From NCBI RefSeq assembly GCF_900116115.1, contig NZ_FOZP01000005.1:62001-126000 (forward strand): DNA of 64,000 nucleotides, read 5' to 3'. This stretch comes from Lutibacter maritimus. GTDB taxonomy: Bacteria > Bacteroidota > Bacteroidia > Flavobacteriales > Flavobacteriaceae. The position numbers were made by a program, and so were the translations under genes. Below are positions 1 to 58,466 of this stretch, in pieces (the stretch's first letter is position 1; the number at the start of each line of letters is the position of its first letter). The notes beneath the pieces were generated by a model, which searched no databases, was not told the origin of the DNA, and saw nothing but the letters and a program-made list of their open reading frames with translations.

Positions 1-1185
1 ATTGCTATTGCTGCTGTGGGTATGTTAGCAAATACAGGTATTCAATTGGCTGTTGATGCTTATGGGCCAATTTCAGATAATGCTGGAGGTATTGCTGAAA
101 TGGCAGAATTACCAAAAGAAGTGCGTGAGCGTACAGATAAATTAGATGCTGTTGGAAATACAACTGCAGCTATTGGAAAAGGATTTGCAATTGCTTCTGC
201 TGCTTTAACAGCATTGGCTTTATTTGCTGCATTTATGAAAACAGCCAATGTAACTTCAATTGATGTTTCAAAGCCCGATATTATGGCTGGTTTATTAATA
301 GGAGGTATGTTACCTTTTGTATTTTCTGCCTTATCTATGAATGCAGTTGGAAGAGCTGCCATGGCAATGATTGAAGAGGTTCGTCGTCAATTTAGAGATA
401 TTCCTCAACTAACGGCAGCTTTAAAAGTAATGCGTAAATATGATTCAGATATGTCAAAAGCAACTGATGAAGATAGAAAAATATTTGATGCTGCAGATGG
501 TTATGCTGATTACAGTAAATGTGTTGAAATTTCTACACATGCATCAATTAAAGAAATGATTTTTCCAGGTTTATTAGCTTTAATTGTACCAGTAGTTGTT
601 GGTTTTGGAGGTAAATTTATTGGAATTGGAGGTCCTCAAATGTTAGGTGGTTTATTGGCAGGTGTAACAACATCGGGAGTGTTAATGGCAATTTTTCAAT
701 CTAACGCTGGTGGAGCTTGGGATAATGCTAAAAAAATGATTGAAGAGCAAGGTAGAAAAGGTACGGATGCTCATAAAGCGGCTGTAGTTGGAGATACTGT
801 TGGTGATCCGTTTAAAGATACTTCAGGACCATCGTTAAATATTTTATTAAAATTAATGTCGGTTGTAGCTTTAGTAATTGCGCCAAGTATTGCTTTAGAA
901 AAAACGGATATTGATGAATATAGTAAAGAAAAAGTTGCTACAGAAGTTGTTACAAATCAAATTTCAAAAGCAGTAAATGTTGAAATGAAAACAAATGAAG
1001 ATGGAACTGTAACTGCAACGGTAATTACTGAAACTACTGAAAATGGCGAAACAGTTATTGAAGAGAAAGTTTTTACAGGAACAGAAACTGAAGTAAGAGC
1101 ACAAATTGATGCTTTAAAAAATGTAGAAGCTAAAACTGATGCTAAAAAAATTATAGTAAAAGAGGTTATTGAAGGAAATCAATAA
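1..1185 (+). CDS. hppA: Membrane-bound sodium/proton-translocating pyrophosphatase, C-terminal part (5' end outside window)
   Basis: This integral membrane enzyme hydrolyses pyrophosphate and pumps Na+ and/or H+ across the inner membrane. The frame is open from base 1, so the gene begins upstream and the GTG at 16 is internal. Family motifs are clear: [28 protein letters not shown] and [18 protein letters not shown], which carry the acidic and Lys residues that bind Mg-PPi. Ala rather than Lys after GNTTA is the mark of the K+-dependent subclass. Known Bacteroidota members of that subclass pump Na+ or both Na+ and H+, so Na+ coupling is inferred. About 394 residues are visible, roughly half of a usual 700-750. 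A hydrophilic tail of about 95 residues follows the last membrane segment, which is longer than in most relatives. A bidirectional terminator follows. Confidence 0.96.
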
Positions 1186-1201
1186 AAAACCTTTACACAT
1201 A

Positions 1202-1231
1202 AAAAAAGCCCACTAATTAGTGGGCTTTTTT
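1202..1231. terminator. Bidirectional intrinsic terminator between hppA and the kinase gene
   Basis: A perfect 18-base palindrome at 1208-1225 (GCCCACTAA/TTAGTGGGC) is flanked by an A-run on the left and a T-run on the right. It can therefore end transcription of hppA on + and of the convergent kinase gene on -. Confidence 0.9.
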
Positions 1232-1242
1232 ATGCTTTTTTG

Positions 1243-1857
1243 CTAAAATAATCCGTTTATTTGGGCATCTATTTTATCAATAATTTTACCTAAATCCTCT
1301 TGATTTTCAACAAAATCTAAATTGTCAACTTCAATAATTAATAAATTACCTTTATCATATTTAGTAATCCAAGCTTCGTAGCGTTCATTTAATCTGCTTA
1401 AATAATCAATACTTATAGAGTTTTCATAATCTCTTCCTCTTTTATGAATTTGGCCAACTAAGGTAGAAATTGAGGCTCTTAAATAAATAAGTAAATCTGG
1501 TGGTGAAACCAATCGTTCCATTAATTCAAATAAAGATTCGTAATTTGTGTAATCTCTATTTGGCATTAAACCCATTGCATGTAAGTTTGGTGCAAAAATT
1601 CGGGCATCTTCATAAATAGTTCTATCTTGAATAATATTTTTACCACTTTCTCTGATTTCTAATATTTGGCGAAAGCGACTATTTAAAAAATATACTTGTA
1701 AATTAAATGACCAACGCTCCATTTCACTATAAAAGTCATCTAAATATGGATTACCTTCAACAGATTCATAATGTGGTTCCCATTTGTAATGTTTGGCTAA
1801 AAGTTTGGTTAAGGTGGTTTTACCTGCTCCAATATTGCCGGCAATAGCTACGTGCAT
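1243..1857 (-). CDS. Deoxynucleoside kinase (dAdo/dGuo kinase-like)
   Basis: This cytosolic kinase phosphorylates deoxynucleosides for nucleotide salvage. The 204-residue protein starts with a P-loop, GNIGAGKTT (residues 7-15). It then has the WSFNLQVYFLNSRF helix and the DRTIYEDARIF motif that corresponds to the DRS/ERS box of the dNK family, and an Arg-rich lid (KRGRDYE). Length and order match the bacterial dNK/dGK family. Substrate preference (dA/dG versus dC/dT) cannot be read from sequence alone. The start is an ATG at 1857. It lies 75 bases after the response regulator gene and probably has its own weak promoter. Its 3' end shares a terminator with hppA. Confidence 0.9.
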   Translation of the reverse strand: MHVAIAGNIGAGKTTLTKLLAKHYKWEPHYESVEGNPYLDDFYSEMERWSFNLQVYFLNSRFRQILEIRESGKNIIQDRTIYEDARIFAPNLHAMGLMPNRDYTNYESLFELMERLVSPPDLLIYLRASISTLVGQIHKRGRDYENSISIDYLSRLNERYEAWITKYDKGNLLIIEVDNLDFVENQEDLGKIIDKIDAQINGLF

Positions 1858-1885
1858 ATTTTAGATTTTAGTGATAATGAAAACG

Positions 1886-1917
1886 CTAAAATACTTATTT
1901 TTTTTGTGAATTAGCAA
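1886..1917 (-). promoter_or_regulatory. Candidate promoter for the deoxynucleoside kinase gene
   Basis: On the minus strand TATTTTAG (1893 to 1886) resembles the Bacteroidota -7 element TAnnTTTG with one mismatch, and TTG lies 21 bases upstream (1917 to 1915). A start of transcription near 1880 would leave a leader of about 22 bases. Confidence 0.35.
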
Positions 1918-1932
1918 TACAATTTTAACGGA

Positions 1933-2613
1933 TTAATAAATCAGTTTGTATCCGAATCCTCGCACGTTTATAATTTGTATAGCAGGATCGCTTTTTAATT
2001 TTTTTCGAAGTTTAGTTATAAACACATCCATACTGCGTGCATTAAAAAAGTCGTCATCACCCCATAATTTTTTTAGTATAAAAGAACGCTCTAATACTTG
2101 ATTTTTATTTTTTATTAAATAATAAAGTAAGTTAGCTTCTCTGTGCGTTAAATTTTCGGTGGTGTTATGGAAAGTTAATGTTTGTTTTTTTAAATTAAAA
2201 ACATATTCGCCCAATGGAATAATTTCAGAAGATATTTCATTTTGACCGCGTTTTAACAAGGCATTAATACGTACAATTAACTCTTCCATGCTAAAAGGTT
2301 TCTTTAAATAATCATTACCGCCAAGATTAAAACCTTGAACTACATCTTCAGTTTGAGATTTAGCCGTTAAAAATATAATTGGAATAGTTGGATTTTCTTG
2401 CCGTATTTCTTTGGCTAATGTAAATCCATCTTTTTTTGGCATCATTACATCTAAAACAAGTAATAATGGATTTTCTTGTTTGTAAACTTTATAGGCTTCT
2501 TCACCATTTACACATAACAATACTTCAAAGTTTCGAGTTTCTAAACTTTCTTTAATAATTTGCCCCAATGAAGGTTCATCTTCGGCCAATAATATTTTTA
2601 CAGTATTACTCAT
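1933..2613 (-). CDS. OmpR-family response regulator (RprY-like)
   Basis: This cytosolic transcription factor of a two-component system has a receiver domain at about residues 5-120, with the acidic pair in LLAEDEP, the phospho-acceptor Asp in LLVLDVMMPKKDGF and the conserved Lys in YLKKPFSMEEL. A winged-helix Trans_reg_C domain follows (about 130-226), with the LTHREANLLYYLIKN and MDVFITKLRKKL segments. It overlaps the downstream kinase gene by 8 bases (2606-2613), so the two are co-transcribed with the kinase first. The pair is divergent from the GLPGLI / outer-membrane barrel operon, which suggests, but does not prove, that it regulates that operon. Resemblance to RprY of Bacteroides is by family only. 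Confidence 0.92.
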   Translation of the reverse strand: MSNTVKILLAEDEPSLGQIIKESLETRNFEVLLCVNGEEAYKVYKQENPLLLVLDVMMPKKDGFTLAKEIRQENPTIPIIFLTAKSQTEDVVQGFNLGGNDYLKKPFSMEELIVRINALLKRGQNEISSEIIPLGEYVFNLKKQTLTFHNTTENLTHREANLLYYLIKNKNQVLERSFILKKLWGDDDFFNARSMDVFITKLRKKLKSDPAIQIINVRGFGYKLIY

Positions 2614-4078
2614 TTGGTAGTGTTATTTTAAATAGCGTATTATTATTTTTATCGTAAACTATTTGTACTTCACCGTTGTGTTTTTCAATTATTTTTTTGG
2701 TATAATATAAACCAATTCCAAAACCTTTTACATTGTGGGTATTACCAGTTGATATTCTGTAAAATTGTTCAAAAACTTTATCTTTTTGAGCTTTATGAAT
2801 ACCGTTACCATTATCTTTAATAAAAATGAAACATTTATTTTTTAACGTTTCCAATTCAACGGTAATTGTATTTCCACCATATTTAATTGCGTTATCAATT
2901 ATATTTCCAATAGCATTTTCAAAATGAAAAACATCTAAATTTAAAACTAAATTTGTAGTGTTATTTACAAATTTGAAAGTTTTTTCATTATTTATTAATT
3001 TATATTTTTCAATAGTAGTTTCTATAATTTTAGTAACGTTGGTTGGCTCTTTTGTGAGCGTAAGTGATTCATGATTTAAAGCTGCTGTTTCTAAAATTTT
3101 TTCAACCATTAAGTTAAGCTTTCCAACTTGAGAATTTGCCATTCCAATATATTTCTCAGATTTTGTTTTATCATTTAAAGCATTAAAGTTTTTTAAAGCT
3201 TCTAATGCTGTTGATATAGTTGCAATTGGCGTTTTAAATTCGTGAGTAATATTGTTAATTAAATCGTTTTTCACTTCTGCCAATTGCTTTTGTTTGTAAA
3301 TGGTTTTTAACAAATAAATTAGACTGGCGATAATACTTGCTGAAAGTAATAATGAAAGTAGAATGCTTATAAATGAGTTTCTTAGTAAAAGGGTGGTTTC
3401 ATTTGTAAACAACAATTCTAAATTACTATGATGTGGTAAAAAAGTTGATTTTGAAGCTGTTATAAGGTGCTTTTTCGGAAAATGTTCTAAATTATAACCC
3501 GACGTTTTTTCAATTAAACTATCTTCAAAAACACGTTGTTTGTAAGTATACTTTAAAGCATAACTAACCTCAATTTTATTACGGTTAAACTCTTTGCTTA
3601 TATAAGAATCGAGTTTACTTAAATTTAAAGTGTCTCTTGTGATAGAAATAAATACTTTTGAAATTAGACTGTCAATATTTTTAGGAATTGCACTTCTGTT
3701 ATAGGTTACAAACGGAAAAGATCCATCATTTGGGCTTTTTATTAAAAGTGGTTTTTTATTTTCTTGTTTCGCAATATTTTGCAATGTGCTATCCACTTTT
3801 TTTCTTAAATCCCAACGCGAACTGTTTTTTACAACAATAGTGTCGGTAATTTCTTTTGATTTTCCAGCCTCTGTAGAGGTGTACGTTATAATACCAGACT
3901 TTGTTAAATTGGCAAAATAAGCTTCAACAGAATTGTCTAAACTAAGTTGTACTTTACTTATTAAATTTTGTTTATTTATTTCATATTCTCTGTAATTCCA
4001 ATACACTTGCACCATAATTGTAATAATTATAGTGAGTGCAATAAAAAACACAACCAATTTATAATTTCCCTTATTCAT
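2606..4078 (-). CDS. Membrane sensor histidine kinase (RprX-like)
   Basis: This inner-membrane kinase partners the adjacent OmpR-type regulator. A transmembrane helix lies at residues 8-27, a periplasmic sensor region of about 200 residues follows, and a second membrane helix lies around 230-255. The catalytic part has the H-box (NNITHEFKTPIATISTALEA), N-box (NIIDNAIKYG), G1 (DNGNGI) and G2 (GFGIGLYYTKKII). I see no clear HAMP domain between the second helix and the H-box. No periplasmic sensory fold is recognised, so the signal is unknown. The 490 residues are a normal length. The start is an ATG at 4078, and 123 bases separate it from the divergent GLPGLI gene. Confidence 0.92.
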   Translation of the reverse strand: MNKGNYKLVVFFIALTIIITIMVQVYWNYREYEINKQNLISKVQLSLDNSVEAYFANLTKSGIITYTSTEAGKSKEITDTIVVKNSSRWDLRKKVDSTLQNIAKQENKKPLLIKSPNDGSFPFVTYNRSAIPKNIDSLISKVFISITRDTLNLSKLDSYISKEFNRNKIEVSYALKYTYKQRVFEDSLIEKTSGYNLEHFPKKHLITASKSTFLPHHSNLELLFTNETTLLLRNSFISILLSLLLSASIIASLIYLLKTIYKQKQLAEVKNDLINNITHEFKTPIATISTALEALKNFNALNDKTKSEKYIGMANSQVGKLNLMVEKILETAALNHESLTLTKEPTNVTKIIETTIEKYKLINNEKTFKFVNNTTNLVLNLDVFHFENAIGNIIDNAIKYGGNTITVELETLKNKCFIFIKDNGNGIHKAQKDKVFEQFYRISTGNTHNVKGFGIGLYYTKKIIEKHNGEVQIVYDKNNNTLFKITLPNE

Positions 4079-16647: not shown

Positions 16648-18774
16648 TTATTGGTTATTAAAGGTGAAGCAATGCGTAAATACACACGATTTACAATTAC
16701 TTTCTTCATAAAATACTTTAACTTTTATGCAAACTGTGTACTCAATTTCACAACAACTTGGGTCGAGACCAGAAATAGGTCCTGGTAAACCAATGGTTAG
16801 GTTTACTGGAATTGCTCCAGTTAATGCCGAATTACTTGTATATTTTATGTTTTTTGTTGCATTATCATTCGAACTCGGACTGCCAGAAGCAGATTCATTT
16901 ACTAATTGTAAAGAAGTTGAACCGTTAATAGTAGTACCTGGCATTAAGAACATACCAGATTCTTCAACACTACTAACACCTTCAGAACAAGGTGAAGGAT
17001 TGGCAGTATAACTATAAGATTGTATTTGAAATTCTATACCGTAAATAGGCATATTTACATTAATATCACCATCAAAATTAAATTGATTGCCACTTGCCCC
17101 GTTCAATGAAATATTAAAATCATCGAAAGAGAGTTCCATTTCTTCACAATCATCACAAATACACTCCGGTAATTCATCAAAATTGGCACTAACACCAGGT
17201 TGACATAACACAGGACTTGGATCTAAATCGTCACCTTGTAAACCAAACCCAATGGCCGTTACACTTGCAGAAACAGTTACTTCAAAGCAATAACTAACTG
17301 TTGAAGTACTCGCGCCAATTTGAGTTAAAAGTGTTGGGTTTGGGCTCACTAATGTATATGTTAAAGCTGCGTACGATTGATCGAAAACCGATAAACCTGA
17401 ACCCGGATTTCCAAAGGTTAAATCTCCAGAGGTACTTGAATAGGTGGAATCAAAACAAATTTTAAATTTTCTGTTTTCACCTTCATAGCCTAAACATTCA
17501 ATTTCTTCATTAGAAATAGCAAAGTCAATTTCGCAATTGCTAAATGTAAAAAACATAATATCCGATGAATTTCCTGAAGTAGTTTCAGTAACTTTCCATC
17601 GGTATTGACCATCACTGAGCTTATTTTCTTTAAAAATACGAGTAGCAACTAAAGAAGTACTAGTTGTTTTTTCAATAAAAGTACGTTGTGGTTGTTGATT
17701 GCTTCCAATTTTAGTAACCTCAAGAATAAATTGAGGGTTTGGAATTTTAGCACCAACAACTTGCCAAGTAAAATTTTTGATTTCATCAGCATTTTTAAAC
17801 ACACTATTGTTTTTAGGCAAAATGCTTATTATTTTTTGTTGTTTATTTTTTTTAGTTACTTTTTCTTTTGCAGGATTTGTGAAATTAACAGAACCTGAGT
17901 TCTGGATTGATACCATATTACCTTCCAAACTATTTTCTCGAAAATATGGGTTTGTATGACCTTTAGATGGCTGCTCTTTGGATGTGGTAGTTTTTTTTCC
18001 AAAATTATAACTTAATCCAAACCCGTAATTAAATACTTGTGGTTGTATATTTTTGTCGGTGTATTGAAATGCTATTTGTTCTCCATTTTGTCTAACAATA
18101 TCCGTTTCATCAATAACACCATCTTTGTTAATATCGGTAAATTGTTTTCTACCATCTTGTGCCATAATAGCATCTGAAAAAGCAGATAAATAGTTTGCTG
18201 TAATATATAAACCAAATCTTGGATTTAATTTATAACCCAATCTTATTCCAGCATTATAAAAACCTACGTTCGATGTTTTATTTGTACTAAAGTTGTATAC
18301 AGGAATTGAAGTTGGAGCATCTGCATTTTCAGAAACAAAATTTCCTCCTAAAGAAATAGGTTTTACAGACATTATACCAGCACGACCAAAAATGGTGGCT
18401 TCCATATCACCAAAGTTTGTTCTATAACTTGGACCAATACCATAGTAAGAAGTTTTCCATTTTTCTGAATTCAATTCAATGGGATAGGAAGCTTCATTAG
18501 CGAAATCTAATAAATTTCCTTCGGTAGGATTTGAAAAACTCCCTAGAGAAACTCCTATACCAATTTTAGAAAAATAATAGGTTGACGATAATTCAAAAAA
18601 ACTACCATCATTTGCATAAGAATTGTTACTAAAGGTTGAAGTTGCAGAGGAAATACCTGCAGCTACCATTACTTCAACCAAGCTCATTTTTTTTTGGTCT
18701 GGCTCGGTTATTTTTTTTTGTGAATACCCAATAGTTGTAAACACAAATAAAATGAGGATGCTTAATTTTTTCAT
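16648..18774 (-). CDS. Outer-membrane barrel protein with Ig-like and Cys-rich C-terminal domains
   Basis: This 708-residue protein has a signal peptide (1-18, ends near IGYSQ). A probable small outer-membrane beta-barrel spans about 25-260 (YYGIGPSYRTNFGDMEATIF, ending QVFNYGFGLSYNFG). It includes a perfect EF-hand-like loop DINKDGVIDETD at residues 214-225. A linker follows, then an Ig/Fn3-like domain (about 310-410, TWQVVGAKIPNPQF, DGQYRWKVTE), a second beta domain (about 415-535), and a Cys-rich domain at about 540-708 (CEIEYTVCIKVKV). The last domain is homologous to part of the next gene's product. First gene of the two-gene operon. It probably anchors or exposes the partner at the surface, an inference. 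Confidence 0.8.
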   Translation of the reverse strand: MKKLSILILFVFTTIGYSQKKITEPDQKKMSLVEVMVAAGISSATSTFSNNSYANDGSFFELSSTYYFSKIGIGVSLGSFSNPTEGNLLDFANEASYPIELNSEKWKTSYYGIGPSYRTNFGDMEATIFGRAGIMSVKPISLGGNFVSENADAPTSIPVYNFSTNKTSNVGFYNAGIRLGYKLNPRFGLYITANYLSAFSDAIMAQDGRKQFTDINKDGVIDETDIVRQNGEQIAFQYTDKNIQPQVFNYGFGLSYNFGKKTTTSKEQPSKGHTNPYFRENSLEGNMVSIQNSGSVNFTNPAKEKVTKKNKQQKIISILPKNNSVFKNADEIKNFTWQVVGAKIPNPQFILEVTKIGSNQQPQRTFIEKTTSTSLVATRIFKENKLSDGQYRWKVTETTSGNSSDIMFFTFSNCEIDFAISNEEIECLGYEGENRKFKICFDSTYSSTSGDLTFGNPGSGLSVFDQSYAALTYTLVSPNPTLLTQIGASTSTVSYCFEVTVSASVTAIGFGLQGDDLDPSPVLCQPGVSANFDELPECICDDCEEMELSFDDFNISLNGASGNQFNFDGDINVNMPIYGIEFQIQSYSYTANPSPCSEGVSSVEESGMFLMPGTTINGSTSLQLVNESASGSPSSNDNATKNIKYTSNSALTGAIPVNLTIGLPGPISGLDPSCCEIEYTVCIKVKVFYEESNCKSCVFTHCFTFNNQ

Positions 18775-43983: not shown

Positions 43984-43991
43984 TATATTTG
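43984..43991 (+). promoter_or_regulatory. Promoter -7 element of mvaD
   Basis: TATATTTG fits TAnnTTTG exactly. It overlaps the in-frame TTG at 43989, so translation must begin later, at TTG 44007. The predicted leader is about 10 bases. Confidence 0.55.
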
Positions 43992-44006
43992 CTCAAAATT
44001 TATATT

Positions 44007-45155
44007 TTGACTGAAACCGACTTTATTTTATCAAATTTTGAAACATCAAAAGCTTCTAATGGAAGCGTAACTTGGAAAACGCCAAGTAATATTGCGTTGG
44101 TTAAATATTGGGGAAAGCAAGAACCTCAATTGCCTGAAAATACTTCTATAAGTTTTACTTTAGATGCTTGCTTTACGTTAACCACTTTGGAGTATAAGTT
44201 GAAGAATCGTCAATCTGAACTTGTTTCAGGTTCACATAATGAGATGCTGAAACAAGTTCAGCATGACGTGAATTCATTTAATTTTGAAATTTATTTTGAA
44301 GAAGAAAAGAAAGATGATTTTAAACCAAAAATTCAAAAATTCTTTGAAAGAATAGTTCAATATGTTCCTTTTTTAAAAGCGTATGATTTTGTAATAAAAT
44401 CTAGAAATTCTTTTCCTCATAGCAGTGGAATTGCCTCTTCAGCAAGTGGAATGAGCGCATTGGCTTTGTGTGTAATGAGTTTAGAAAAAGAATTAAATCC
44501 AAGTATTTCAGAAGAATATTTTAATAAAAAAGCTTCATTTTTAGCGCGTTTAGGATCTGGAAGTGCTTGTAGAAGTATTGAAGGTGAGTTGATTGTTTGG
44601 GGAAATCATCCAAAAATTGAAGGAAGTTCAAACTTATTTGGCGTAAAATTCCCGTATAAAGTTCACGAAAATTTTAAAAATTATCACGATACTATTTTGT
44701 TGGTTGATGAAGGCGAAAAACAGGTTTCAAGTACCGTTGGACATCAATTAATGTACAATCATCCTTTTGCGCAACAACGTTTTCAACAAGCCAATGATAA
44801 TATCTCAAAAATAAGTGAAGTGCTTGAAAATGGTAATTTAAAAAAGTTTGTTGAAATTGTGGAAAGTGAAGCGCTAAGTTTACACGCAATGATGATGACA
44901 AGCAATCCATATTTTATTTTAATGAAGCCAAATACCTTAAAAATAATTAATAAAATTTGGGCGTACAGAGCAGTAACAAAAAGCAATATTTGCTTTACCT
45001 TAGATGCTGGCGCAAACGTTCATGTATTGTTTCCGGAAGCTGAAAAAGAAAATGTTAATAATTTTATAATAAACGAGTTAATTCAATTTTGTCAAGAAAA
45101 TCATTATATTTGCGATAGAATTGGACTTGGGGCAAAACGATTATCCAATATTTAA
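44007..45155 (+). CDS. mvaD: Diphosphomevalonate decarboxylase with palindrome-encoded insert
   Basis: This cytosolic GHMP enzyme decarboxylates mevalonate diphosphate to isopentenyl diphosphate using ATP. The motifs NIALVKYWGK, HSSGIASSASGMSALALC (ATP loop, substrate Ser), LGSGSACRSIEGELIVWG and FTLDAGANVHVLFP (catalytic Asp) are present. 382 residues from TTG 44007; there is no ATG before residue 77 of this frame, which lies well past the active-site motif. Residues about 67-88 (from RQSELVSG to QHDV) are encoded by a 61-bp palindromic element and look like an insertion between two strands. It is followed by mevalonate kinase after 4 bases. The rest of the frame is intact, so the enzyme is probably functional. 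Confidence 0.92.
   Translation: MTETDFILSNFETSKASNGSVTWKTPSNIALVKYWGKQEPQLPENTSISFTLDACFTLTTLEYKLKNRQSELVSGSHNEMLKQVQHDVNSFNFEIYFEEEKKDDFKPKIQKFFERIVQYVPFLKAYDFVIKSRNSFPHSSGIASSASGMSALALCVMSLEKELNPSISEEYFNKKASFLARLGSGSACRSIEGELIVWGNHPKIEGSSNLFGVKFPYKVHENFKNYHDTILLVDEGEKQVSSTVGHQLMYNHPFAQQRFQQANDNISKISEVLENGNLKKFVEIVESEALSLHAMMMTSNPYFILMKPNTLKIINKIWAYRAVTKSNICFTLDAGANVHVLFPEAEKENVNNFIINELIQFCQENHYICDRIGLGAKRLSNI
44208..44268. repeat. 61-bp palindromic element inserted in frame in mvaD
   Basis: The inner arms CTGAACTTGTTTCAG (44215-44229) and CTGAAACAAGTTCAG (44247-44261) are a perfect 15-base inverted repeat with a 17-base loop. The outer arms CGTCA (44208-44212) and TGACG (44264-44268) extend the stem after a 2-base mismatch. 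The sequence resembles dispersed palindromes I recall from other Flavobacteriaceae genomes, which often read as SELVSG...LKQVQHD when inside genes. Only one copy is in this window. Confidence 0.8.
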
Positions 45156-45159
45156 ACAT

Positions 45160-46089
45160 ATGAAAGGACCGCTTTTTTACGCGAAAATTTTACTTTTTGG
45201 AGAATATGGAATCATAAAAGATTCCAAAGGTTTGGCGATTCCGTACAACACGTATCAGGGAGCTTTAAAAAAATCTGAAGAACATTCTGAGGCTTCTCAA
45301 AAATCAAATTTCAATCTACAAAGATTTTATAATTACTTAATTAACTTAGAAAATAAGGACTTAATTAATTTTAGATTTGATGAGTTTAAAACCGATATTG
45401 ATGAAGGTATGTATTTTGATTCTAGTATTCCGCAAGGTTATGGAGTTGGTAGTTCGGGCGCTTTAGTTGCTTCTATTTATGATAAATATGCTAACAATAA
45501 AATTACGGTTTTAGAAAATTTAACACGTGATAAATTGTTAACATTAAAAGAAACCTTTTCTTTAATGGAATCCTTTTTTCACGGGAAAAGTTCTGGTTTA
45601 GATCCTTTAAATTCATACTTAAGTTTGCCAATTTTAATCAATTCAAAAGATAATTTAGAAGCTACTGGAATTCCTTCACAAAAAAAAGGAAGAGGTGCTG
45701 TATTTTTGTTAGATTCTGAAATTGTTGGTGAAACAGAACCGATGATTAACATTTTTATGAATAAAATGAAAAATGAAGGTTTCAGAAAAATGTTAAATGA
45801 AGATTTTGCAAAATATACCGATGCTTGTATTGATGATTTTTTGCACGGAAATGTAAAATCGTTATTTGGTAATGTAAAACAACTATCTAAAGTTGCTTTT
45901 GATAATTTTAAACCAATGATTCCGCAGCCATTTCATACTATCTGGCAACAAGGAATTGATTCTAATGATTACTACTTGAAATTATGCGGATCAGGTGGTG
46001 GAGGTTATATTTTAGGGTTTACCAAAAATTTTAAAAAAACGCAAGAAATTTTAAAAGATTATAAGCTAGAATTAGTTTATAGATTTTAA
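45160..46089 (+). CDS. Mevalonate kinase
   Basis: This cytosolic GHMP kinase phosphorylates mevalonate. Residues 7-17 hold the N-terminal substrate motif YAKILLFGEYG. The ATP loop is PQGYGVGSSGALVASIYD (near 92-109), the catalytic Asp lies in GKSSGLDPLNSYLS, and the C-terminal motif is LCGSGGGGYILGF. 309 residues from the ATG at 45160, 4 bases after mvaD. An in-frame extension to a TTG at 45121 would overlap mvaD and is unlikely. With mvaA and the GYDIA kinase it supplies isopentenyl diphosphate. A UbiA-type prenyltransferase follows. Confidence 0.93.
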   Translation: MKGPLFYAKILLFGEYGIIKDSKGLAIPYNTYQGALKKSEEHSEASQKSNFNLQRFYNYLINLENKDLINFRFDEFKTDIDEGMYFDSSIPQGYGVGSSGALVASIYDKYANNKITVLENLTRDKLLTLKETFSLMESFFHGKSSGLDPLNSYLSLPILINSKDNLEATGIPSQKKGRGAVFLLDSEIVGETEPMINIFMNKMKNEGFRKMLNEDFAKYTDACIDDFLHGNVKSLFGNVKQLSKVAFDNFKPMIPQPFHTIWQQGIDSNDYYLKLCGSGGGGYILGFTKNFKKTQEILKDYKLELVYRF

Positions 46090-56696: not shown

Positions 56697-58466
56697 TTAA
56701 CCGTTCATAGAGATTAAAAACTCTTCGTTTGAAGTAGTGTATTGAATTTTACCTTTAATGAATTCCATTGCTTCTACAGGGTTCATATCCGCAAGATACT
56801 TTCTTAAAACCCACATACGTTGTACGGTTTTAGCATCTAATAATAAATCATCTCTACGTGTACTAGATTTCACTAAATCAATAGCAGGATAAATTCTTCT
56901 ATTAGCAATGTTGCGTTCTAATTGAAGTTCCATATTACCTGTACCTTTAAACTCTTCAAAAATAACTTCATCCATTTTTGAACCTGTTTCAGTTAATGCT
57001 GTTGCAATAATAGATAATGATCCTCCGTTTTCAATATTTCTTGCTGCTCCAAAAAAGCGTTTTGGTTTGTGTAAAGCATTTGCATCAATACCACCTGATA
57101 AAATTTTACCAGAAGCTGGTGCAACAGTATTATATGCTCTTGCCAAACGAGTTATTGAATCAAGTAAAATAACAACGTCATGCCCACATTCAACCAATCT
57201 CTTTGCTTTTTCTAAAACAATATTTGCAACTCTAACATGTTTTTCTGCAGGTTCATCAAAAGTTGATGCTACAACTTCACCTTTAACGCTACGTTGCATA
57301 TCTGTAACCTCTTCAGGTCTTTCATCAATTAATAAGATTATTTGATATACTTCAGGGTGGTTAGATGCAATAGAGTTTGCAATATCTTTTAGTAACATTG
57401 TTTTACCCGTTTTAGGCTGAGATACTATCATACCTCTTTGCCCTTTTCCAATTGGAGAAAACAAATCGATTATTCTGGTTGAAAGTGTACTATTTCTTCC
57501 AGCTAAATTAAATTTTTCTTGAGGAAATAAAGGTGTTAAGTGCTCAAATGATACTCTATCTCTAACAACATTTGGGCTTAATCCGTTAATTTTAGAAACT
57601 CTAATTAGCGGAAAATATTTTTCACCTTCTTTTGGTGGTCTTACAACACCTTTTACTGTATCACCAGTTTTTAATCCAAATAATTTTATTTGAGATTGAG
57701 ATAGATAAATGTCATCAGGTGATGATAAATAATTATAATCGGAAGATCTTAAAAAACCGTAACCATCTGGCATCATTTCTAAAACACCTTCACTTTCTAT
57801 AATCCCATCAAACTCGTAATCTGGATCTCTATATCTGTTTCCAGATTTTCTAGGACCTTTGTTATCTCTAGGTTGGTTTCCAGCTTGTTGTTGATTGTTG
57901 TTTTGCTGATTGTTGTTTTGCTGATTGTTTTGCTGAGGATTTCCTTGACCTTGAGGTTTGTTTTGGTGTTTTGGTTTGTTTTGTTGTGTTGGATGTGATT
58001 TTTCCTTTTTAACCTGATTTGGTTTTTCTTCAGATTTTAAATTATTCGATTCTTTCTCTGATAAAGTTGGAGCTGATTTCTCATTAGTTTGATTATCAGT
58101 TTTTTTAGACGGTTCTTCAATTGCCTCTTTAGGTTTTTTTTGTGACACTGTCTTTTTAGGTTCTGTTTTAACAGTTTTTGTAATTTCAGGCTGAGACTCT
58201 GAAATTATTTCTTGCTTTGCAGGAACTGCGTTAGTAGCATTTTCCTTTGCAGGTTTTGGTTTTTTAACGATTCGTTTTCTTTTAACCTTACCTTCGTTTG
58301 CAGATTCGTTTTGAGTAACTTTTGCTGGAGTGGCCGCTTGAATATCTAAAATTGCATAAACTAAATCTAGTTTTTTTAATTGGCTATATTTTTTTGCACC
58401 AATTGTTTTGGCAATCTCTTGTAATTCTAAAAGTGTTTTCTCCTTTAGTTGGGAAATTTCAAACAT
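56697..58466 (-). CDS. rho: Transcription termination factor Rho with long disordered insert
   Basis: This hexameric RNA helicase ends transcription of untranslated RNA. Rho_N is at about 1-45 ([20 protein letters not shown]). A low-complexity Lys/Glu/Pro/Gln/Asn insert (about 50-215) follows, then the cold-shock RNA-binding fold (about 225-300, [20 protein letters not shown]) and the RecA-like ATPase with [17 protein letters not shown] (P-loop, near 355), [13 protein letters not shown] and [19 protein letters not shown]. 589 residues compared with 419 in E. coli; the insert explains the difference and is usual in Bacteroidota. A distant -7 element leaves a leader of about 130 bases, consistent with autoregulation. 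Confidence 0.96.
57893..57934 (-). repeat. 15-bp tandem repeats in rho encoding a Gln/Asn tract
   Basis: GATTGTTGTTTTGCT occurs at 57893-57907 and 57908-57922, followed by a 12-base partial copy. On the minus strand it encodes alternating Gln/Asn residues ([15 protein letters not shown]). Such repeats can change in number by slippage. Confidence 0.85.

Follow-up and report, generated by a model that had tools for sequence, protein, structure and literature searches.

The window analysed here, a stretch of 64,000 nucleotides from Lutibacter maritimus, carries a 61-bp palindrome that is read in frame within mvaD, the predicted gene for diphosphomevalonate decarboxylase. The geometry of this palindrome fits two CGTC-tagged REPs, dispersed repeats of a published family, joined head to head as a dimer. 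We consider it very probable that the dimer, hereafter element A, sits in frame in a tolerant loop of MvaD, and that the loop has been re-used by repeats through the history of the genus. The recurrence of repeats in one MvaD loop across Lutibacter is the new part; palindromic repeats lying in frame have so far been reported, for the most part, as isolated cases scattered over various genes.

The palindrome (44208-44268, + strand) consists of a CGTCA outer arm (44208-44212), a 15-bp inner arm, a 17-base centre and then both arms reversed, the second outer arm being the complementary TGACG (44264-44268). Two unpaired bases separate the inner from the outer arm on either side. The inner arm CTGAACTTGTTTCAG is exact at 44215-44229 on the + strand and, as its inverse copy, at 44247-44261 on the − strand. 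The left REP unit (44208-44233, +) is formed by a CGTC tag (44208-44211), a stem of eight positions with one T-G mismatch and a 5-nt loop; the right unit (44243-44268, −) has the inverse orientation, with its tag read as GACG at 44265-44268, a perfect 8-bp stem and a 5-nt loop. By eye, the left unit pairs at seven of the eight stem positions in the window strain and at all eight in the sister genome G021. The flanks (...GAAT and TGAAT...) resemble each other as the halves of a target-site duplication would, which could be chance. The RNA fold of 44195-44280 reached −33.9 kcal/mol, whereas shuffled sequences averaged −15.4 (z −6.6), none of the 200 shuffles being equally stable. With up to two mismatches, CTGAACTTGTTTCAG gave four matches in the window as compared with a mean of 0.10 and a maximum of 1 in 100 shuffles. 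A chance palindrome is ruled out by these shuffles, by the fold stability and by the number of genome copies set against a zero control (see below). Two near-matches to the arm lie elsewhere in the window, at 17574 and at 56978; the latter, within a 589-aa ORF that presumably encodes Rho, was taken as chance.

The mvaD ORF (43989-45155, + strand) encodes 388 residues from a TTG start, the true start being possibly slightly downstream, and runs open through the palindrome, which encodes the peptide RQSELVSGSHNEMLKQVQHD (residues 74-93). The Pfam models MVD-like_N and MDD_C both score above cut-off. The NCBIfam equivalog TIGR01240 matches with an E value of 2.6e-43, yet its 148.2 bits are below the curated cut-off of 171.35. 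The 50 solved structures listed by a fold comparison are mevalonate 5-phosphate or diphosphate decarboxylases with 20-26% identity. Judged by Pfam and fold, the protein is diphosphomevalonate decarboxylase-like. An AlphaFold2 model based on 45 sequences (mean pLDDT 86.5) places the insert between strands 53-71 and 98-103, with a helix predicted at 83-92; the mean pLDDT is 61 in the block 71-80 and 58 in the block 81-90. This location is consistent with an extended beta-hairpin turn. Hence the preliminary description, which had claimed a 61-base element with a 15-base inverted repeat and 5-base outer arms, an open frame with about 20 additional residues, and a position between two predicted strands, was accurate on all of these points. 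The net gain of the loop over most repeat-free Lutibacter loops is 18-19 residues (52 versus 33-34), three of the twelve repeat-free loops being longer (36-37 residues). The next gene (45121-46089, + strand; motif GPLFYAKILLFGEYG), which we take to encode a GHMP kinase, lies downstream of mvaD in all 34 Lutibacter loci.

Element A is dispersed well beyond mvaD. In the 3.48-Mb genome of the window strain, CTGAACTTGTTTCAG occurs in 8 exact copies and in 17 with at most one mismatch, and the reversed control gave none. The 38 Lutibacter genomes contain 432 exact copies, 35 of the genomes being positive. In the family as a whole, 78 of the 199 genomes and 77 of the 198 genera carry the same 15-mer, again with a zero reversed control. 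The element had been called a mobile or dispersed palindrome and its recurrence in Flavobacteriaceae had been suggested; its dispersal and its recurrence are both borne out by these counts, and the whole-genome count of the arm, which had been named as a check, revealed further copies inside and outside genes. We take G. forsetii to be a flavobacterium. This species is among those positive for CGTC-tagged REPs (PMC3733652). In the open-licence literature searched, no mention of the exact A arm was found, and Lutibacter combined with palindromic returned only papers with unrelated titles. Among 40 A-arm contexts from relatives, in which both arms of one dimer were counted apart, CGTCA was located within 9 nt upstream in 24, and CGTCA or TGTCA in 26. 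An inverse arm followed within 60 nt downstream in 20 of the 40; single units are thus common too.

The genomic environment of the arm was surveyed at 16 chosen sites of the window strain (of 17 arm places, C11:323868 was left out). Eight sites are outside any ORF, one is at the start of a 269-aa ORF and one in a 102-aa ORF, while three are weak matches in genes. The three credible in-gene copies are located in mvaD, in the gene of an ATPase-like protein (C9:50094) and in a mutase gene (C10:79708). In the ATPase-like protein (L010:1313-2047, minus strand), which has a weak Pfam RNA_helicase match, one REP unit is read in frame (TRHPELVSGS) in the C-terminal third. In the fused mutase (L025, ORF 54-3026), the interdomain linker (residues 458-517) holds a near-match to the A arm, reads EILKQVKN and is about 23 residues longer than in the solved relative 4xc6. 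In a relative, RHPELVSGS is found in a type I restriction specificity subunit, directly N-terminal of the Methylase_S domain (L304, G040 C18, ORF 861-2600). For annotation, peptides such as ELVSGS...MLKQVQHD should be read as translations of repeats, which can fake similarity between unrelated proteins.

We then compared the MvaD loop across the genus. The search for MvaD was positive in 33 Lutibacter genomes besides that of the window strain, giving 34 in all; G014, G042, G045 and G049 gave no match. Using thresholds of at most four mismatches for A and at most five for a second repeat, B, the 34 loops were classified as 12 with A, 9 with B, one with both (G012) and 12 with neither. Two calls are weak: that of A in G016, with 4 mismatches and a p of 0.04, and that of B in G006, with 5 mismatches and a p of 0.018. 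Some of the loops scored as empty may hold repeat remnants. The reading frame is kept in all 34 loops. The 12 loops with no detected repeat measure 33-37 residues, are dissimilar in sequence and do not conserve the residues of the insert. The alignment of orthologues, on which the preliminary description had staked its claim, thus upholds an insert. The picture of a single insertion has to be widened, since two or more kinds of repeat occupy the MvaD loop genus-wide.

Repeat B, CTGAGCGGAGTCGAAG, has 373 matches in 30 of the 38 Lutibacter genomes; its pattern gave no match in the genome of the window strain, and no mention of its core was found in the open-licence literature searched. CGTCA was present within 9 nt upstream in 3 of 37 B-core contexts, and in 6 of 37 with TGTCA added. 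Repeat B is REP-like, and we are unsure of its membership of the CGTC superfamily.

Could the loop be an ordinary indel-prone and weakly constrained one, which resembles dispersed repeats by chance? A few Flavobacteriaceae of other genera do show loops of differing length (63 of 70 loci outside Lutibacter have 32-36 residues and seven fall outside this range, the 26-residue loop of L214 being probably a parsing effect). However, in 17 of the 34 loops none of 400 shuffles came as close to the A or B core as the loop itself (0-2 mismatches), the reversed-pattern controls of the genome searches with both cores were zero, and the whole-genome repeat counts contradict such a resemblance by chance, making this explanation highly improbable. 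Outside Lutibacter, L228 carries by eye a B-like repeat with a TGTCA tag in the mvaD loop, and the longer mvaD loops of L240, L220 and L189, at the same site in other Flavobacteriaceae, also look repeat-like by eye. The site may thus, from L228, be open to repeats beyond Lutibacter. We give an assembly or binning artefact a negligible probability: several relatives are indeed fragmented assemblies, but repeat-bearing loops are found in G012 and G019, each assembled as a single contig, and in the window strain, whose genome has 20 contigs, the insert is common to this strain and G021, and no loop of the 34 has lost its frame.

The insert is shared by the window strain and G021, whose MvaD cores are 91.7% identical, and is missing from the next relative, G041. 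By eye, an ACC-type left unit is combined with an ATGC-type right unit in the window strain, G021, G022 and G047, the order is reversed in G018, and G040 has an ATTC-type left unit; hence the A dimers do not all derive from one unchanged copy. Different repeats occupy the one MvaD site in close relatives: G005 and G001, with a core identity of 96.2% across 1890 nt, differ in the loop, which contains A and measures 43 aa in the former and contains a B array and measures 87 aa in the latter. Changes of loop state were counted on a tree of the MvaD core and the neighbouring downstream gene, the loop being excluded, in which 9 of 31 inner branches were starred as well supported. At least 13 changes are needed for the states none, A and B, where 1000 shuffles averaged 16.0 and 6.3% of them came out as low; presence or absence needs 9, with a shuffled average of 10.1 and 28% of the shuffles as low. 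On this weakly resolved tree, where gain and loss are indistinguishable, the number of changes is near that of shuffled labels.

The core of MvaD is under purifying selection, with a dN of 0.025 and a dS of 0.418 between the window strain and G021 (dN/dS about 0.06). The insert shows one synonymous change (pS 0.079) as compared with a pS of 0.321 in the core; this scarcity is a weak hint of constraint or of gene conversion. The few synonymous changes would suit a loop selected at the protein level, an addition useful to MvaD for which repeats are the raw material. So would the repeat-derived sequence in 22 of the 34 loops and the fact that the frame of the left unit is the same in all 12 loops of class A (RHxELVS type, with substitutions); a second frame is also open, and the 12 are non-independent events. 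We nevertheless find such selection unlikely, because close relatives (G005, G001, G022, G010, G044) carry A, B or no insert, 12 of the 34 loops have no detected repeat, and the loop is of low confidence in the AlphaFold2 model.

Alternatively, the function of the palindrome might reside in the nucleic acid: a hairpin in mRNA or DNA would tune the expression of mvaD and of the gene behind it, and the peptide would be a by-product. The very stable hairpin of the window would be compatible with this role, as would the perfect arms of 15 bp in the window strain, G021 and G040 and of 13 bp in G022. However, 17 of the 22 loops with a repeat contain no perfect inverted repeat longer than 8 bp (maximum of 4-8 bp per loop), and the 10-bp inverted repeat of G006 is an AT-rich stretch, which renders a nucleic-acid role very unlikely.

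Repeat B is also found inside A hairpins. When the arms were defined strictly, hairpins enclosed 3 of 36 copies of B, as compared with 11 of 1200 places picked at random from these loci; this test is weak, and of the three only L114 and L116 are clear cases of an A hairpin divided by B. By eye, B is located within an A hairpin at L126 and splits another palindrome at L103, L118, L119 and L128. In G021, a 6-kb stretch (L303, C11:45000-51000) contains 23 exact A arms on one strand, in and behind the glycosyltransferase gene described below. The whole genome has 57, so that A has been amplified locally.

A search with the insert peptide over the 38 Lutibacter genomes, the query of which favours A, yielded 14 rows with an open frame of at least 200 aa. 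Six of them are mvaD and four a group 1 glycosyltransferase, besides one type I restriction specificity subunit and one repeat-array ORF belonging to no Pfam family; in two of the 14 rows the element is at the N-terminus and is possibly untranslated. A match to the glycosyltransferase at E <= 1e-60 was obtained in 16 of the 38 Lutibacter genomes, with stop-to-stop ORFs that range from 378 aa (G047) to 950 aa (G020, ending at a contig edge). Between 13 and 589 residues lie beyond the 365-column core; most of them belong to two loops, located in the N-terminal half and ahead of PF00534, respectively, and by eye these residues are largely repeat-encoded. The glycosyltransferase of the window strain (C19:698108-699631; L330:1109-2632, minus strand) has 508 aa, 143 of them outside the core, and its repeat is of a different type (RHPQLDWGS...QIPNQVRND). 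The G020 protein has tandem copies of a compound unit, and repeat-grown loops were also seen at the loci L335, L332 and L331 of relatives. The core of this enzyme is under purifying selection, with a dN/dS of about 0.10-0.23 (five pairs; dS >1 in four). In other genera, 96 genomes have a match to the glycosyltransferase (E <= 1e-70), the open frame being at most 403 aa in 92; three of the four longer frames match part of the query only. This family-wide search is biased, for long loops split the match, 152 of 249 genomes gave no match and the orthologue of the window strain barely passed the limit (3.7e-72). Therefore, a confinement of long loops to Lutibacter does not follow.

We propose that a miniature, non-autonomous CGTC-REP dimer landed in the beta-hairpin turn of MvaD on the branch common to the window strain and G021, or earlier, its mobility being provided by an enzyme acting in trans. 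The element would have survived through an orientation, a frame and a spacer length that give a short hydrophilic and presumably near-neutral peptide (RQSELVS...MLKQVQHD) in a tolerant loop. Across Lutibacter, the same loop would have been filled, replaced or cleared repeatedly by A and B. A point against this reading is that recombination between species could move whole loop alleles. Tolerance explains why loops are struck; it explains less easily that 10 of the 14 long-frame rows of the A-biased search fall in two genes and that different repeats share sites. Both would be accounted for if a first tolerated in-frame REP hairpin became a target on which several kinds of repeat keep landing, such that the loop grows, is replaced and is refilled over speciation times while the surrounding enzyme stays under purifying selection. 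We regard such seeding as possible rather than probable, its direct test being the weak count of B copies within hairpins given above. If true, Lutibacter would have a few lasting in-gene sinks of repeats, the MvaD loop and the two glycosyltransferase loops, which would be habitats of mobile DNA and sources of new protein sequence. The repeat-filled MvaD loop and the glycosyltransferase make the tempo and the tolerance of selfish DNA in proteins measurable, the basis being pairs of closely related species, closed genomes, loops both empty and filled, and an ordinary enzyme assay.

Element A shares with the REPIN/RAYT systems an inverted pair of short tagged hairpins dispersed genome-wide, and differs from them in its tag, CGTC instead of GTAG, and in the enzyme. 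Pfam PF01797 (Y1/RAYT) has no match in the genome of the window strain, the same threshold being positive in 10 of 14 control genomes; neither the cognate gene nor the tag of a REPIN was found. Of 20 chosen stretches around Y1 matches in relatives, two hold A or B, about 1.2 and 0.4 kb away. Over the 38 Lutibacter genomes, and without kinship correction, the copy number of A does not follow the number of Y1 matches (rho −0.07), while that of B rises with it (rho 0.56); many B-rich genomes are close relatives. A RAYT-driven REPIN was rejected for A on account of the missing PF01797 match and of the little association with Y1 in relatives. Bacterial MITEs are short, non-autonomous and dispersed, with inverted-repeat ends. 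Element A is like them in all of these respects and differs in that its unit is a REP-like hairpin.

The closest likeness is to the CGTC-tagged REPs. In the 2013 report of Di Nocera, De Gregorio and Rocco, their units have an unpaired CGTC tag, often TGTC or CCTC, a stem of 8-9 bp opening with AT pairs, a loop of 4-5 nt and a 3-bp tail, mostly CCA; they are found mainly as head-to-head dimers, some within genes, and have no dedicated transposase (PMC3733652). Element A has the CGTC tag, the 8-bp stem and the 5-nt loop as in CGTC-2, with AT pairs at the first two stem positions (PMC3733652). It likewise forms head-to-head dimers that are mostly intergenic with some in genes, and no linked transposase was found, Y1 alone having been looked at. 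After the stem, many A copies in relatives read C and then TCA, the boundary of the tail being imprecise relative to the published CCA. The Rickettsia palindromic elements are also in-frame palindromes tolerated in conserved genes, and RPE-4 and RPE-6 were assigned to the CGTC superfamily by Di Nocera et al. 2013 (PMC3733652). As the geometry of element A fits this superfamily, the comparison with Rickettsia, earlier drawn in principle, appears close to literal; the host belongs to another phylum, and the likeness is drawn through the superfamily. What mobilises CGTC REPs was left open in 2013 (PMC3733652), and the recurrent sites described here could help to find it. Clustered CGTC repeats are reported as rare, with intragenic clusters encoding 43-82 aa in Thauera and R. 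conorii, and recurrence at the same site is described for recB in two Xanthomonas species (PMC3733652). Lutibacter differs from these cases in having one loop filled by different repeats genus-wide and glycosyltransferase loops grown by hundreds of residues.
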